Assembly: GCA_009380075.1 (NCBI GenBank) | Contig: WHSO01000031.1 | Coordinates: 1-34,990 of the forward strand | From: Alphaproteobacteria bacterium | GTDB taxonomy: Bacteria; Pseudomonadota; Alphaproteobacteria; SMXQ01 | Direction of reading: 5' to 3' | DNA length: 34,990 nucleotides | Part shown: one piece after another, positions 4,327-34,384 of the stretch | Position numbering within the stretch: the first letter of the stretch is position 1 | How the letters are laid out: every line of letters starts with the position of its first letter | Translations under genes and position numbers: made by a program | The notes under the pieces: generated by a model | What the model was told of the DNA's origin: nothing | Databases searched by the model: none | The model's input: the letters and a program-made list of their open reading frames with translations, nothing else

Positions 4327-4375
4327 CGCGGGCCTTCCAGCGGCCCCCCGCGCCATTTCCGGGCGGGCCCATCGA

Positions 4376-4536: not shown

Positions 4537-5610
4537 ATGACCGACTTCCGCACCTTCCAGAGCGCGCATCGCGGGCCCGCCCGTCCCGGCGCGCCCGTGG
4601 TCGATCCGGCGGGCTGGATGCCGGAGACGCTGGCTCGCGACGACGCCTGGATCTACCGGCTGAGCGCCGCCGACATCGCCGACGTTCGCGACGGGATCGC
4701 CGCCGCGCGCAAGCGCGGACTCGCCATCGTCGACCTGAACCCGGGCGATTTTCCCTTGCGCCGTTTCGCCGATATCATCGCCGACGTCCGCAACGAGTTG
4801 CGCGACGGCCGCGGCATCGTCATGCTGCGCGGCCTTCCGGTCGCCGATCTCGGCATCGAATCGGCGGCCATGGCCTATTTCGGCATCGGCACGCACTTGG
4901 GCGCTGCGCTGCGCCAGAACGCCAAGGGTCACGTGCTCGGCCACGTCAAGGATCTCGGCGGCGACTACAACGATCCCAAGACGCGCGGCTACCTCACCCG
5001 CGCCGAGATGCGCTTCCATTGCGACCACAGCGATTACGTCGGCCTCTTGTGCCTGCACCAGAGCAAGTCGGGCGGCGAAAGCCGGATCGCCAGCTCCGTC
5101 ACCGTCTACAACCGCATCCTCGAACAGCGTCCCGACCTCGTGCGCGAACTTTGCAATGACTGGTACTGGACCAAGCACGGCCAGGTCTCCTCCGCCGACG
5201 AGACGCCGTGGTTTAGGGCGCCGATCTTCATGTTCGAGCGCGGCGTGTTCTCGGCCCGCGGGCTCGGCGCCTATGTGCTCAAGTCGCAAGGCCTGCCGGG
5301 CGTGCCGCCGTTCACCGCCGCCCAGAAGGACGCGATCCGCATCTACGAGGAGACGGTGCAAGCCTCGGCGGTGGACATCGGGTTCGAGCCGGGCGACATC
5401 CAGCTTCTCAACAACCACGTCATGCTGCACACCCGGCGCGCCTTCGAGGACTGGCCCGAGCCGCACCGCAAGCGCCATCTGCTGCGCCTCTGGCTCACCG
5501 ATCCCGATGCCCGTATCCTGCCGGCCTTCATGCGTGAGGGGATGCTCGGCGAGGGCGTGGCGCTCGACGACGTCACTGCCAGCGCGCCGCTGGATGCCGA
5601 CGCGGCCTGA
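4537..5610 (+). CDS. TauD/TfdA-family Fe(II)/2-oxoglutarate dioxygenase
   Basis: A 357-residue member of the TauD/TfdA clan that couples 2-oxoglutarate decarboxylation to substrate oxidation. The metal site is visible: H161-x-D163 in 'RFHCDHSDYVGLL' and a distal H298 in 'NNHVMLHTRRAFED'. R317 in 'RHLLRLWL' is the expected 2-oxoglutarate carboxylate ligand. Members of this group include enzymes acting on taurine, carnitine precursors and unknown small acids, so the substrate is not assigned. ATG 4537 is chosen because GAGGAG precedes it by about ten bases; in-frame starts at 4501 (TTG) and 4516 (ATG) are weaker. It is a single gene between the tRNA and a convergent transporter, with no sulphonate transporter beside it. 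Confidence 0.9.
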   Translation: MTDFRTFQSAHRGPARPGAPVVDPAGWMPETLARDDAWIYRLSAADIADVRDGIAAARKRGLAIVDLNPGDFPLRRFADIIADVRNELRDGRGIVMLRGLPVADLGIESAAMAYFGIGTHLGAALRQNAKGHVLGHVKDLGGDYNDPKTRGYLTRAEMRFHCDHSDYVGLLCLHQSKSGGESRIASSVTVYNRILEQRPDLVRELCNDWYWTKHGQVSSADETPWFRAPIFMFERGVFSARGLGAYVLKSQGLPGVPPFTAAQKDAIRIYEETVQASAVDIGFEPGDIQLLNNHVMLHTRRAFEDWPEPHRKRHLLRLWLTDPDARILPAFMREGMLGEGVALDDVTASAPLDADAA

Positions 5611-8510: not shown

Positions 8511-11500
8511 ATGGTTCGGCCCCGAAACGCGGAAATCACCGCCCTGATCGGCAAGATCGTCGCCGGCACGAAGCGGCGCGCCAAGGGAAAGGGCGGGGCG
8601 AGGGGCACGGGCCGGCGCCAAGGCCGGTCGCGAGCCATGGACGAGGCCTTCATCCGCGGCTATTTCGCCCGCGTGCCCGTCGAAGACCTGCGCGGATACG
8701 ACAGCGGCGACCTGGCCGGACAGGCCCTGTCGTTCCTCGCCTTCGCCTCGGTGCGCAAGCCGGGCAAGCCGTCGCTGCGCCTCTTCAACCCGGACGCCAG
8801 GACGCACGGCTGGTCCGGCCCGCATACGGTGATCGAGATCGTCAACGACAACATGCCGTTCCTGGTCGATTCGGTGGTGGCGGCGCTCAACGGGCGCGGC
8901 CTCGGCGTGCGTCTCGTCATCCATCCGGCGTTCAAGGCCTGGCGCGATTCCCGCGGCGTCCTCAAGGGCCTGGGACCGCAGGCGAAACCTCCGGCGGCGT
9001 TGCGGGAAATCGCCGAATCCTACATCCATGTCGAGATCGACCGCCAGGTTGCCGAAGACGAGATGGCGGACATCCGCAAGACCATCGAGAGCGTGCTCGC
9101 CGACGTGCGCGTGGCGGTGACCGACTGGATGGCCATGCGCGGCAAGATCGTGGACGTCATTCGTGAACTCGGCAGCGAGGGCGTGGCCAGGGAGTCGGCG
9201 GAATTCGTGAGCGAGGTGCACGATTTCCTCAAATGGCTGGACGACGATCACTTCACCTTCCTCGGCTATCGTCGTTACGACTTCACGACGCGCAAGGACA
9301 CCAGGCACGCCCGTGTCGTTCCTGATTCCGGCCTCGGCATCCTGCGCGACCCCAATGTGCGAATCTTCTACGCCGACGAATCGACGATGCCGCGCGACGT
9401 GCGCGAAATCGTTTCGGAGGGGTACACGATCTCCATTTCCAAGGCGAACCGGCGCTCGACCGTGCATCGCCCGACCCACATGGATACCATCGGCGTGCGC
9501 ATCGTCAATGCCGCAGGCGAGGTCGCGGGCGAACACCGTTTCGTCGGCCTGTTCACGTCCCATGCCTACAGCATCAACCCGCGCTACATCCCGCTGCTGC
9601 GCCGCAAGATTTCCCGCGCCATCGCCGCCGCCGGCTTCGATGCGTCCAGCCACGACGGCAAGGCCTTCCAGCACATCCTGGAGACCTATCCCCGCGACGA
9701 ACTGTTCCAGATCTCGGAAGACGAACTGGTCGAAAATGCACTCGGCATCCTGCACCTGCAGGAACGCCAGCGCACTGCGTTGTTCCTGCGCCGCGACCCG
9801 TTCCACCGCTTCGTCTCGTGCCTGGTGTACACGCCGAGGGAGCGCTACTCGGCCAACCTGCGGCAGCGCTTCGGCGACATCCTGTGCCGGGCGTTCGAGG
9901 GCACCGTGTCGGCGGCCTATACCCAGGTCGGCGACGAGGCACTCGCCCGCATCCACTTCATCATCAGGACCGACCCCGAAAAAAAGCAGGGCTACGACAA
10001 GGATGCGATCGAACGCGACCTTGTTGCCGCGTCGCGGTCGTGGGCGGACGATCTGCGCGATATCCTGATCGCGGCGCATGGCGAACGCGAGGGGCTCGCC
10101 ATGTACGCGCGCTACGCCCCCGCCTGTCCCGCGTCCTACCGCGATACGTTCTCCGCCTCCCAGGGCGTACATGATGCGGACAAGATCGAGGAGGTGCTGG
10201 CCACCCGGCGCTCCGCCCTGCACCTCTATCGCCGTCAGGGCGACGATGCCGACGAACTGCGCCTCAAGATCTACCAGCCGGGTGCGCCCCTGCCTCTCTC
10301 CGACGCGCTGCCTGTGCTGGAGAACATGGGCCTTAAGGTAATGGAGGAGATCCCGTTCGAGATCGCGCTCCGGGACGCGGGCTCGGTCTGGATTCACGAC
10401 TTCGGTCTCGAGCGCCGCCATGCGCTACCCGCAGGCAAACAGGACTTCGCGCGCCTGAAGGAACTGTTCGAGGATTGCCTGGCGCGCGTCCAGAGCGGCG
10501 AGGTCGAAAATGACGGCTTCAACCAACTGGTCCTGACCGAATGCCTGAGCTGGCGCGAGGTCGTCGTCGTACGGGCCTATTCCAAGTACCTGCGCCAGGC
10601 CCGCGCGCCGTTCAGCCAGGACTACATGATCGAAACCTTCATCCGGAATTCGGGATTCGCCCAGATACTCACGGCGTTGTTCGCCGCCAAGTTCGACCCC
10701 TCCGACCGCAAGAACGCTCATGGTCGCATCAGCACCGGCAAGGTCCGCTACGAAGAGGCCTTGGAGAAGGTCTCGATCCTGGACGAGGACCGCATCCTGC
10801 GCCGCTTCCTCAACCTCGTGATGGCGAGCCTGCGCACGAATCACTATCAGAAAGACGCTTCAGGCGGGCACAAGCCCTATCTGTCCATAAAGCTCGCCAG
10901 CAGCGAGATCGAGAACCTGCCCCTGCCGCGTCCGTGGCGCGAGATCTGGGTCTACAGCCCGCGCGTCGAAGGCATCCACCTGCGCGGCGGCCGGGTGGCG
11001 CGCGGCGGTATCCGCTGGTCGGACCGGCGCGAGGACTTCCGCACCGAGATCCTCGGCCTGATGAAGGCCCAGACGGTCAAGAATCCGGTAATCGTCCCGG
11101 TCGGTGCCAAGGGCGGCTTCGTCGTCATGCGCCCGCCAGCGGAAGGCGGCCGCGAAGCGCTCCTCGCCGAAGGGATCGAATGCTACAGGACGCTGATGCG
11201 CGGCCTGCTCGACCTCACCGATAACCGCGTCGGCGACAGGGTTGTCATCCCCAGGGACATCGTGCGCTACGACGACGACGATCCTTACCTTGTTGTCGCC
11301 GCCGACAAGGGCACCGCGACATTCTCCGATATCGCCAACGGCATCGCGCGGGACTACGGCTTCTGGCTTGACGACGCCTTCGCCTCGGGCGGGTCGGTGG
11401 GCTACGACCACAAGAAGATGGGCATCACCGCGCGCGGCGCATGGGAATCGGTCAAACGCCATTTCCGCGAAATGGGGAAGGATATACAGGAGGAAGACTT

Positions 11501-24687: not shown

Positions 24688-26056
24688 ATGACGACGGAAT
24701 TGAAGTCCCTTTCGCCACTCCCTGTCCGGGCCCTCGGATCCATCGGCATCGTCGCCGCCTATCTCGTCCTTGTGCTGGCGCCGCTCGCTTTGGCCTGGGC
24801 TTCGGCGCCCGACGGCGGCGGTATCGCCGCCGAGATCGGCAGCGCCGCCGCCTTCGCCGGCTACGCCATGCTGCTGGCGCAGTTCACGCTGACGGGACGC
24901 TTCCGCGTCATCGGCGCGCGCATCGGCATCGACGTCGTCCTGCGGCTGCACCAGCTTCTCGCCCGCGCGCTGACGGTCCTGCTGGTGCTTCATCCGTTCC
25001 TCTACGGCTTGCCGCGGATCGTCGCCGACCCCCTGGCTTATCTCGCCGGCGTCGTCCGGATGTTTACCACGCCGGCTTTTGCCTCGGGGGTGGCTGCATG
25101 GATTCTGCTTCTGGCGTTGATGATCCTCGCGGTCTATCGCGGCCGGATTGGATTGCGCTACGAAGTCTGGCGCGCCAGTCACGCGTTCCTCGCGGTACTC
25201 GTCGCCACCGGCGGGTTGCATCACGCGCTGACGGTCGGTGGTCTCAGCGGCGCGCCGGGTGTGCGGATGGCCTGGGTGGTCCTCGCCGCACTAGCGGGCC
25301 TTACCCTCCTGCACACCTACCTGTTCCGGCCGCTGGCGCTGGGGCGCCACCCTTGGCGTATCTCGGACGTGCGCTCCGTCGGCCCCGGTCGCTGGGTGTT
25401 AGGGGTGGAACCGGATGGCGGCGGGGCGCTCGACTTCCGCGCCGGGCAGTTCGTCTGGCTCAAGGTCGGCGACCACCCGTTCACCCTGCGCGAGAACCCG
25501 TTCTCCATCGTATCCGCCCCGGGCGCGCCCCGGGTGGAATTCCTCATCCGCGAAGCGGGCGACTTCACCGGGGCCGTCGGCCGCCTCCGGCGCGGACAGC
25601 GGGCCTGGCTCGACGGACCCCCACGGCGCCTTCACGCGCGCAGCGGCGGGTAACGCGGCACGTGTGATCCTGCTCGCCGGTGGGGTCGGGCTGGCGCCGT
25701 GTCTCGCCATGCTGCGCGAGGCCGCGGCCGAGGGCGATCCGCGCCCCCATCACCTGATCTTCGGCAACCGGACCGAGGGCCAGATCGTGCTGCGCGACGA
25801 AATCGCGGCCCTGTCGCCGCGCCTCGACCTCCGGACCGATTTCGTGCTGTCGGAACCGCCGCCGGGCTGGGGCGGGACGACCGGCCAGATGGACGCCGAA
25901 ACACTGACGCCCCTTCTGGCGGGCGGCGGGAACGCGTCCGGCGCCGTCTACTTCGTCTGCGGCCCGCCGCCGATGGTGCGCGCGTCGCTCCATGCTCTGT
26001 CGGCGCTCGGTGTGCCGGCGGACGGGGTCGTTACCGAACGCTTCGACTACGATTGA
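24688..26056 (+). pseudogene. ferric reductase/NOX-like flavocytochrome, frameshifted in a C5 run
   Basis: Two frames together encode one protein of about 455 residues. Frame one (24688-25653) has about six membrane helices with histidines suited to haem ('RLHQLLARALTVLLVLHPFLY', residues split over the helix; 'WRASHAFLAVLVATGGLHHAL'). It then has an FAD-binding region with 'FRAGQFVWLKVGDHPFTLREN'-type residues near 250-270. After 'RAWLDGP' it runs out of family sequence and stops at 25653. The next frame resumes 'HGAFTRAA', then the NAD(P)H motif 'LLAGGVGLAPCLAML' and 'YFVCGPPPM', ending at 26056. Removing one C from CCCCC at 25618-25622 restores one frame. Such proteins pass electrons from NAD(P)H via FAD and haem across the membrane. 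It may be a real mutation or a sequencing error. Confidence 0.88.
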
Positions 26057-32184: not shown

Positions 32185-33219
32185 TCATTGAACGCCTGCG
32201 ACCTCGCCCAGCGGCCAGCGCGGGCGCGGACGGAAGTCGAGCGGATCGGCGAGCCCGAGTCGCAGGCGCTCGATCCCCGCCCAGGCGACCATCGCCGCGT
32301 TGTCGGAACAGAGCGCCGCGGGCGGTGCCACCAGGGTAAATCCCTGCGCCCCGGCGACCTCCGCCAGCGCGGCGCGCAGGGTGCGGTTGGCGGCGACGCC
32401 GCCGGCCACCACCAGATGGCGCACGCCCGGATGGGCGGCGGCGAAGGTCTGCAGCGCGGTGCGGGTCCGGCGCGCCACCGATTCGGTGATGGCGGCCTGG
32501 AACGACGCCGCGATGTCGGCAGCTTCCTTTTCATTGGACGGATGGCCGAGGCGGTCCACCACCTGCGCCACCGCGGTCTTGAGGCCGGAGAACGAGAAAT
32601 CGCAGCCCGGCTTGCCCAGCATCGGCCGCGGCAGGGCGTGGCGTGCGGGGTCGCCCGTGGCCGCGGCGCGTTCGAGCGCGGGCCCGCCGGGGTACGGCAG
32701 GCCGAGGAGCTTCGCCGTCTTGTCGAAGGCCTCGCCCATGGCGTCGTCGATGGTGGTGCCCATGACGCGGTAACGCCCGACCCCCTCCACCGCGACGAGC
32801 TGGCTGTGGCCGCCCGTCACCAGCAGCAGGAGATAGGGGAAGGCGATGTCATGGGTGAGCCGGCAGGTCAGCGCGTGGGCTTCGAGGTGGTTGACGTTGC
32901 TGAGCGGCTTGCCCGTCACCTGGGCCAGGGTCTTGGCCGTCATCACGCCGACGATGACGCCGCCGATCAGCCCCGGCCCGCCGGTGACCGCGATGCCGTC
33001 AAGCGCGTCGAAGCCGATTCCCGCCTCGGTCATGGCGTCGCGCACCAGCGTGTCGATATGGTCGAGGTGGCTGCGCGCCGCGATCTCCGGCACCACGCCG
33101 CCGTAGGGCGCGTGCTCGGCGAGCTGGCTCAGCACCTTGCTCGCGCGGATGTCGCGCGTGTCGGTGACCACCGCCGCCGCGGTCTCGTCGCAACTGGTCT
33201 CGATGCCGAGGACGATCAT
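32185..33219 (-). CDS. tsaD: tRNA N6-adenosine threonylcarbamoyltransferase
   Basis: A 344-residue Kae1/TsaD ASKHA protein that, with TsaB and TsaE, transfers threonylcarbamoyl from TC-AMP to A37 of ANN-decoding tRNAs. It begins 'MIVLGIETSCDETAAAVV', carries the metal site H111-L-E-A-H115 in 'VNHLEAHALTCRL', then 'LLLLVTGGHSQLV', 'AFDKTAKLLGLPYPGGP', and 'VAGGVAANRTLR' with 'CSDNAAMVAWAG' near the end. ATG 33219 is certain from the family N-terminus; the open frame running upstream into hemC is not coding. It is divergent from hemC. Confidence 0.98.
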   Translation of the reverse strand: MIVLGIETSCDETAAAVVTDTRDIRASKVLSQLAEHAPYGGVVPEIAARSHLDHIDTLVRDAMTEAGIGFDALDGIAVTGGPGLIGGVIVGVMTAKTLAQVTGKPLSNVNHLEAHALTCRLTHDIAFPYLLLLVTGGHSQLVAVEGVGRYRVMGTTIDDAMGEAFDKTAKLLGLPYPGGPALERAAATGDPARHALPRPMLGKPGCDFSFSGLKTAVAQVVDRLGHPSNEKEAADIAASFQAAITESVARRTRTALQTFAAAHPGVRHLVVAGGVAANRTLRAALAEVAGAQGFTLVAPPAALCSDNAAMVAWAGIERLRLGLADPLDFRPRPRWPLGEVAGVQ

Positions 33220-33241
33220 TGCCGCTCGCCCACCTCCGTCT

Positions 33242-33262
33242 CCGCGCGCGGGTCGCGCGCGG
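33242..33262. promoter_or_regulatory. 9-bp perfect stem in the tsaD/hemC divergent region
   Basis: CCGCGCGCG (33242-33250) and CGCGCGCGG (33254-33262) enclose the loop GGT, 23 bases upstream of the tsaD start. Being all G/C, it would be a very stable stem in the tsaD leader. No promoter box is clear around it. Confidence 0.4.
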
Positions 33263-33337
33263 GCCCTACATACCCGCCCGTTGCGCGGTGCGCCAGCACC
33301 TCGGTCACGGCACCCGGTTACGACCCCGGAACGGCCC

Positions 33338-33366
33338 CGTCCCGCGGCCTTGCGCCGTCCCGCGGG
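33338..33366. repeat. 10-bp direct repeat upstream of hemC
   Basis: CGTCCCGCGG occurs at 33338-33347 and 33356-33365, an 18-base period. The CCCGCGG cores also form an inverted repeat with CCGCGGG at 33360-33366. It lies 20 bases before the hemC start; it may be a regulator site or only GC-rich coincidence. Confidence 0.35.
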
Positions 33367-33385
33367 CGCGCGTACCAATGGGTCC

Positions 33386-34384
33386 ATGAGCACCGTTCCT
33401 TCCACGCCCGCGGCGCGCGCCGCCGCCGGAGCCCTGGTCATCGCCACGCGGGGCAGTCCGCTGGCGCTGGTCCAGGCGGGGCTGGTGCGCGATGCGCTGA
33501 TCGCCGCCCATCCGGGGCTCGCGGTTTCGACCGCGGTGATCCGCACGAGCGGCGACATGCGCCTCGACCGGCCGCTGGCGGAGATCGGCGGCAAAGGCCT
33601 GTTCACCAAGGAGATCGAGGACGCGTTGCTCGACGGCCGCGCCGATATCGCGGTGCATTCGATGAAGGACGTGCCGACGGCGCTGCCGCCCGGCCTGCAC
33701 ATCCCCTGCGTGATGGAGCGCGAGGACGTGCGCGACGTGCTCATCGCCCGCGATCCGGCCGTGCGCCGCATCGACGACCTGCCGCGAGGCGCGCGCATCG
33801 GCACGGCGTCGCTGCGTCGCGCGGCGCAAGCACTGGCGCGCCGGCCCGACCTCCGCATCGTTGCCTTGCGCGGCAACGTCGGCACCCGCATCGACAAGAT
33901 CGCAGCGGGCGCCGCCGACGCGACGTTCCTCGCGCTCGCCGGGCTCAAGCGACTCGGTATCTCGGACGATACCGGCACCATTCTCGACGTGGATGACATG
34001 CTTCCCGCTGTGGCCCAGGGGGCCATCGGCGTCGAATGCCGCAGCGATGACGCGCGCGTGGCGCGGCTCCTCGAACACCTTGATCATGCCCCGAGCCGCC
34101 GTTGCGTCACCGCCGAACGCGCTCTACTGGCGGCATTGGAAGGGTCGTGCCGCACGCCCATTGCCGCGTTGGCGACCGTTACCGGTCCCGATGGCGCGGA
34201 CGCAAGCCTCGACTTGCGGGCGATGATCGCGCTGCCCGACGGCCGCCGCCGCGTCGATGCGCGGCAGTCGGGGACCGATGCTGCCGCCCTTGGCGCGGCG
34301 GTGGGGGCACGGCTCCGCGCCGATGCCGGCCCGGAGTTCTTCGTTGCGCTCGCCTCCGCGTCGCCATCCGGGGCGGGGCGGTGA
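33386..34384 (+). CDS. hemC: hydroxymethylbilane synthase (porphobilinogen deaminase)
   Basis: A 332-residue enzyme that joins four porphobilinogens into hydroxymethylbilane in haem and other tetrapyrrole synthesis. Motifs: 'VIATRGSPLALVQA', 'GDMRLDRPLAEIGGKGLFTKEIE' across two lines of the active site, 'DIAVHSMKDVPT', 'GTASLRRAAQ', 'ALRGNVGTRI', and C255 in 'EGSCRTPIAAL', the dipyrromethane-cofactor cysteine. ATG 33386 gives a short Ala/Pro-rich tail before the domain; no strong ribosome site is seen. Its stop overlaps the hemD start (GTGA). Confidence 0.97.
   Translation: MSTVPSTPAARAAAGALVIATRGSPLALVQAGLVRDALIAAHPGLAVSTAVIRTSGDMRLDRPLAEIGGKGLFTKEIEDALLDGRADIAVHSMKDVPTALPPGLHIPCVMEREDVRDVLIARDPAVRRIDDLPRGARIGTASLRRAAQALARRPDLRIVALRGNVGTRIDKIAAGAADATFLALAGLKRLGISDDTGTILDVDDMLPAVAQGAIGVECRSDDARVARLLEHLDHAPSRRCVTAERALLAALEGSCRTPIAALATVTGPDGADASLDLRAMIALPDGRRRVDARQSGTDAAALGAAVGARLRADAGPEFFVALASASPSGAGR

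Follow-up and report, generated by a model that had tools for sequence, protein, structure and literature searches.

Bacterial NADPH oxidases (NOX) are defined, in the available part of PMC5676040, by two heme-binding histidine pairs (His-X12/14-His), six transmembrane helices, the FAD motif H[PSA]F[TS][LIMV] and the production of superoxide from O2. Structures 8qq7 and 8qq5 are of one such enzyme, SpNOX, the Streptococcus pneumoniae NADPH oxidase (PMC11031084, available part). The gene studied here is like SpNOX in that a ferric-reductase membrane domain is combined with a FAD/NAD(P)H module, but the sequence similarity is weak and the NOX NADPH motif is one residue off. The two parts of the gene lie in different reading frames that join at CCC-C, a sequence that the available text of PMC4519876 describes as a +1-prone error site of tRNA-Pro, suppressed by m1G37, at which up to 1% +1 shifting occurred when it was placed at the second codon position of an E. 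coli reporter. The errors treated in that text are non-programmed, and at the present site no conservation, stop or specific stimulator was found.

Two reading frames meet at a CCCCC run

The window, that is, the whole stretch of DNA analyzed, is contig C46 (34,990 bases) of a draft assembly of 162 contigs and 3.54 Mb (3542 kb), with 97.43% completeness and 2.64% contamination. Three features define the break:

24688 to 25653, plus strand: first reading frame, with the membrane and FAD part and the histidine pairs (PF01794 and FAD_binding_8 matches)
25618 to 25622, plus strand: CCCCC run, the meeting place of the two frames (sequence and alignment)
25619 to 26056, plus strand: second (+1) reading frame, with the NAD(P)H-binding domain and a TGA stop ending at 26056 (PF00175 match)

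Frame one starts at ATG 24688 and is family-like up to 25620 (...GQRAWLDGP), beyond which it runs on out of frame through PRRLHARSGG to a TAA stop at 25651-25653. From 25619, the +1 frame takes over with P-H-G-A-F-T and is family-like as far as its TGA. The family-like lengths are 311 and 144 residues, or 311 and 145 if the shared proline is counted twice, and no additional stop was seen in either part. The first-pass annotation had placed the FAD part in frame one up to RAWLDGP with a stop at 25653, had the +1 frame resume with HGAFT and the NAD(P)H domain, and had put the break at the CCCCC run; the reading of the open frames, the Pfam matches and the alignment bear out each of these statements, and its figure of about 455 residues for a single frame fits the sum of the two family-like parts. 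A C5 run at the switch site is not unusual as such: the window holds 22 exact five-base runs of C and 14 of G, and two further C5 runs lie inside the ferric-reductase-type gene.

Domains and motifs of the split gene

Ferric_reduct (PF01794) matched frame one at 2.2e-13 (50.7 bits, Pfam cut-off 28), and NAD_binding_1 (PF00175) matched the +1 frame, after the membrane part, at 2.1e-18. FAD_binding_8 (PF08022) matched the final third of frame one at 6.7e-4 with 20.2 bits, below the cut-off of 22, which the same profile exceeded in the intact relatives L004 (22.1 bits) and L005 (24.2 bits). A hydropathy scan gave merged hydrophobic stretches across residues 8 to 216, from which no helix count was obtained. 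No NCBIfam family matched the first half, and 15 matched the second half, all far under their cut-offs. Against solved structures, the first half had three matches only at E <= 0.01 (8qta, 8qt6 and 8qq7, at about 7e-5), and the second half matched many FNR-type reductases, 5yly best (4e-12). Unlike 8qq7, the entries 8qta and 8qt6 go unmentioned in the main text of PMC11031084. An intact relative of the same genus matched 8qq7 at 6.9e-14 over residues 62 to 351; in its C-terminal part, other reductases outscored SpNOX, with 2eix (NADH-cytochrome b5 reductase) best. The following motifs were located:

24949 to 24993, plus strand: first histidine pair, H88-x13-H102 (motif scan)
25180 to 25224, plus strand: second histidine pair, H165-x12/13-H178/H179 (motif scan)
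25474 to 25488, plus strand: FAD motif HPFTL (motif as defined in the available part of PMC5676040)
25682 to 25699, plus strand: NAD(P)H glycine motif GVGLAP (motif scan)
25958 to 25966, plus strand: CGP motif close to the C terminus (motif scan)

Both histidine pairs agree with the heme-ligand pattern given in the available part of PMC5676040, and HPFTL agrees with its FAD motif. The NADPH pattern of the same source was missed by one residue, as GVGLAP has L at the fourth position, and for this reason we file the gene as a superfamily member and not as a NOX. The label "NOX-like" in the first-pass annotation therefore has to be used with caution: it agrees with the FAD and histidine-pair motifs and is one residue short for the NADPH pattern. 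We conclude that the gene is, judged by its sequence, a member of the ferric-reductase-domain (FRD, NOX/FRE-like) superfamily.

The genome contains a second match to the ferric-reductase domain, on contig C78 (L026, 7787 to 8122, minus strand; PF01794, 49.1 bits), in an open frame of 293 amino acids. One translated piece at that locus had no Pfam family, and the strand of the piece is perhaps wrong.

Relatives are open across the junction

The first half, used as the query against the genome itself and 40 relatives, gave matches in 8 of the 41, the genome itself among them. The seven relatives from that search and 14 loci from a scan of named genomes form a set of 21 (L004 to L024, from Alphaproteobacteria and other groups) that show the same two-part match, but all are uninterrupted at the studied site: in the aligned junction, a single open frame runs through in 21 of 21 non-self relatives. 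The residues at the join are G-P-H/Y/F-G in 19 of them, the exceptions being A-P-Y-G in L014 and G-A-H-G in L020. With the C-terminal half as the query, tblastn matched 20 of the 21; L015 had no such match at E <= 0.01, yet its frame is open for 134 codons beyond the site. Shorter open stretches cross the site in L023 and L024 (298 and 308 amino acids). L023, a homologue from Gemmatimonadetes, also has an in-frame stop in its upstream half (4337 to 4339), away from the studied site.

The relative of the same genus (G001) matched at 59% over residues 1 to 311 and at 68% over the second half, with no break. Since this relative aligns unbroken on both sides, and since all 21 relatives are open across the site, the frame break is more than a chance apposition of two frames. 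Gene order around the locus is the same in G001, where the gene is intact. On one side, both have htpX and a DUF1674 gene, and on the other, a small cytochrome-c-like open reading frame (ORF) whose cytochrome match is weak and below cut-off, a second small ORF, acs and a Rieske-like ORF; the labels htpX, acs and Rieske are those we presume from recognizing the sequences. Elsewhere in the window, 32185 to 34026 on the minus strand hold a 613-amino-acid ORF with TsaD in residues 293 to 582 only and no Pfam match in its first part. This ORF may have an overlong start that runs antisense to the adjoining gene.

L005, from the same family, and L006, from the same class, each have a C5 run and an in-frame CCC-C at the same place with the frame intact, the phase of the run differing from that in the studied gene. 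Comparison of the site in relatives, which the first-pass annotation had proposed as a check, thus returned the break in none of 21 and a C5 run with an intact frame in two.

Constraint on the two halves

The third-position difference between this genome and G001 was nearly identical in the two halves (0.487 in the first, 0.486 in the second). dN was 0.32 in the first half and 0.24 in the second, and dS was 1.00 and 1.02. Near-invariant columns, defined as those common to 18 or more of the 21 relatives, were kept at 35 of 36 positions in the first half and at 16 of 16 in the second, and the sole exception was common to G001. With G005 as the outgroup, unique residues in the first half numbered 23 in this genome and 30 in G001; in the second half they numbered 12 and 7, a weak excess on small numbers that leans slightly in the direction of relaxed selection. 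Taken from these alignments, both halves look constrained still, so the break would be either very recent or an artifact.

Other conserved genes are split in the same assembly

Frame breaks elsewhere in the assembly were sought with a codon-usage survey trained on 245 long sampled ORFs. The first version, run on 278,005 bases, returned three candidates but not the studied site, after which thresholds were altered; the second gave 15 candidates in 298,005 bases. The final version, with retrained scores and tighter limits, gave 10 candidates in 42 stretches that included the window and covered 557,355 bases of the 3542 kb. Because the survey was tuned on the studied site, its counts serve as a qualitative comparison, not a rate estimate, and the excess over the control is suggestive but not statistically strong. 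That control consisted of 20 stretches (400 kb) from the complete chromosome of G038 and gave four candidates: two transposases, what looks by eye like an ordinary gene start (L094) and a locus with polyketide-type domains in both frames (L101).

Four of the 10 final candidates are conserved families split across frames. One is the studied gene, and the others are as follows:

Contig C17, 9944 to 11439 (L058): Peptidase_M32 (carboxypeptidase Taq), split near 11138 (profile positions 2 to 396 and 392 to 489)
Contig C29, 2774 to 6132 (L072): AcrB-type RND transporter (ACR_tran), split near 5075 (profile positions 3 to 690 and 694 to 1020)
Contig C40, 9514 to 12347 (L083): ileS, split near 11423 (TIGR00392 positions 2 to 633 and 633 to 854)

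On inspection by eye, L047, L058 at 9175 and L083 at 15044 resemble ordinary downstream gene starts. L075 was set aside as an overlapping pair of shikimate kinase and dehydroquinate synthase genes with complete domains. L073 matched the MFS_1 profile at positions 4 to 203 of 347 in one frame and nothing in the other, and L082 matched no family. A candidate at 17454 in L063, listed by the second version but no longer by the final one, proved to lie in a single intact ORF of 776 amino acids (C78, 16121 to 18451) with two similar halves and a long Ser/Thr/Gly repeat linker; the halves presumably resemble glycoside hydrolases.

Among the split genes is one that is essential, ileS, and its break must therefore be an error or be compensated. 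No other location in the genome scored above the ileS cut-off, and the weaker profile matches on C87, C119, C23 and C14 are, we assume, other class I synthetases. A second ileS could lie in a part of the genome absent from the assembly. Ten relatives were compared: in seven, ileS is a single open frame that covers almost all of the model; in G001 and G012 it is in pieces on separate contigs (one G012 piece containing a TAG), and in G004 it is not found above cut-off. We conclude that the ileS break is almost surely an error of assembly or sequence. At these three breaks, the longest runs within 30 bases were TTT, CC and CCC, none above three bases. The lack of long runs is in keeping with scattered errors, not with a recoding signal common to the breaks. 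By the same token, these sites do not point to a homopolymer-specific error process shared by all four breaks.

Explanations of the break

One explanation is that tRNA-Pro slips +1 at CCC-C as a recoding signal, so that full-length protein is made. The first-pass annotation had called CCC-C a known slippage-prone site for proline tRNA, in agreement with the available text of PMC4519876, and the two frames do join there. The same gene, however, holds four other in-frame CCC-C sites (25030, 25528, 25745 and 25910, those at 25030 and 25745 within C5 runs), and the family-like frame persists after each. Among the sampled ORFs, the motif occurred 387 times in 119,618 codon pairs and was present in 182 of the 245. 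No stop adjoins the shift site, the codon after CCC in frame one being CCA, and the predicted RNA fold of the downstream 100 bases was unexceptional (z -1.70, with 13 of 200 shuffles equally good); the earlier observation that neither an adjacent stop nor a stimulatory signal is present therefore holds. The decoding machinery gave no hint either: ARAGORN, run on the loci of 31 of 41 tRNA matches, found three tRNA-Pro genes of 77 nt each, with normal-looking seven-base anticodon loops and G37 in each by eye, and trmD was found in the genome. The break is absent from all 21 relatives, and the two that keep frame through C5 and CCC-C at the same place are a further argument against slippage, as are the ileS, M32 and RND breaks with their short runs. 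We reject programmed slippage, which we regard as very improbable on all of these counts: conservation across the relatives, frequency of the motif, the tRNA-Pro genes, trmD and the RNA fold. It is just as hard to credit that the C5 is real and that some ribosomes slip, giving membrane/FAD-only and full-length products in this lineage alone. Translation could instead restart at GTG 25664 to make a two-subunit enzyme from two cistrons; this codon is in the second frame just before the NAD domain, 13 bases on, counted from where the TAA stop begins. Such a restart would drop the conserved HGAFT stretch, however, and no convincing ribosome-binding site was seen by eye. With no relative among the 21 split at the site, we reject this arrangement too and give it scarcely any weight.

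The choice is then between a change in the cell and a change in the record, both of which the first-pass annotation had considered simpler than slippage; the break in none of the relatives, the unexceptional fold and the commonness of the motif support that preference. Homopolymer slippage is an ordinary route of mutation, and a real, recent change in the length of the C run would turn the locus into a pseudogene, or into a variant at the strain level, in the population that was sequenced. The patchy distribution of the gene among the 41 genomes suggests that it is probably dispensable, and the slightly higher count of unique residues than in G001, seen in the second half, is weakly in keeping with relaxed selection. 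Neither family-like part has acquired a further stop, however, and the near-invariant positions are retained. Moreover, errors explain together the splitting of the other conserved genes, the only ileS found included. The three other split genes, ileS among them, tilt the choice to an assembly or sequencing error, and we consider a real mutation possible, though rather unlikely. We infer that the C5 frame break is probably a consensus error of the draft rather than a biological feature.

With such an error, the cell would carry one unbroken frame of about 455 residues, and its putative product would be an NAD(P)H oxidoreductase bound to the membrane, with heme and FAD as cofactors. By analogy with the family, electrons would pass from NAD(P)H to FAD and on to two hemes, across the membrane. 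Were the break real and read through, the gene would be a natural case of CCC-C recoding, and the evidence points against this. We conclude that when a frame break is seen in one draft genome only, other genes of that assembly should be inspected for breaks before the case is put forward as a pseudogene or as recoding.
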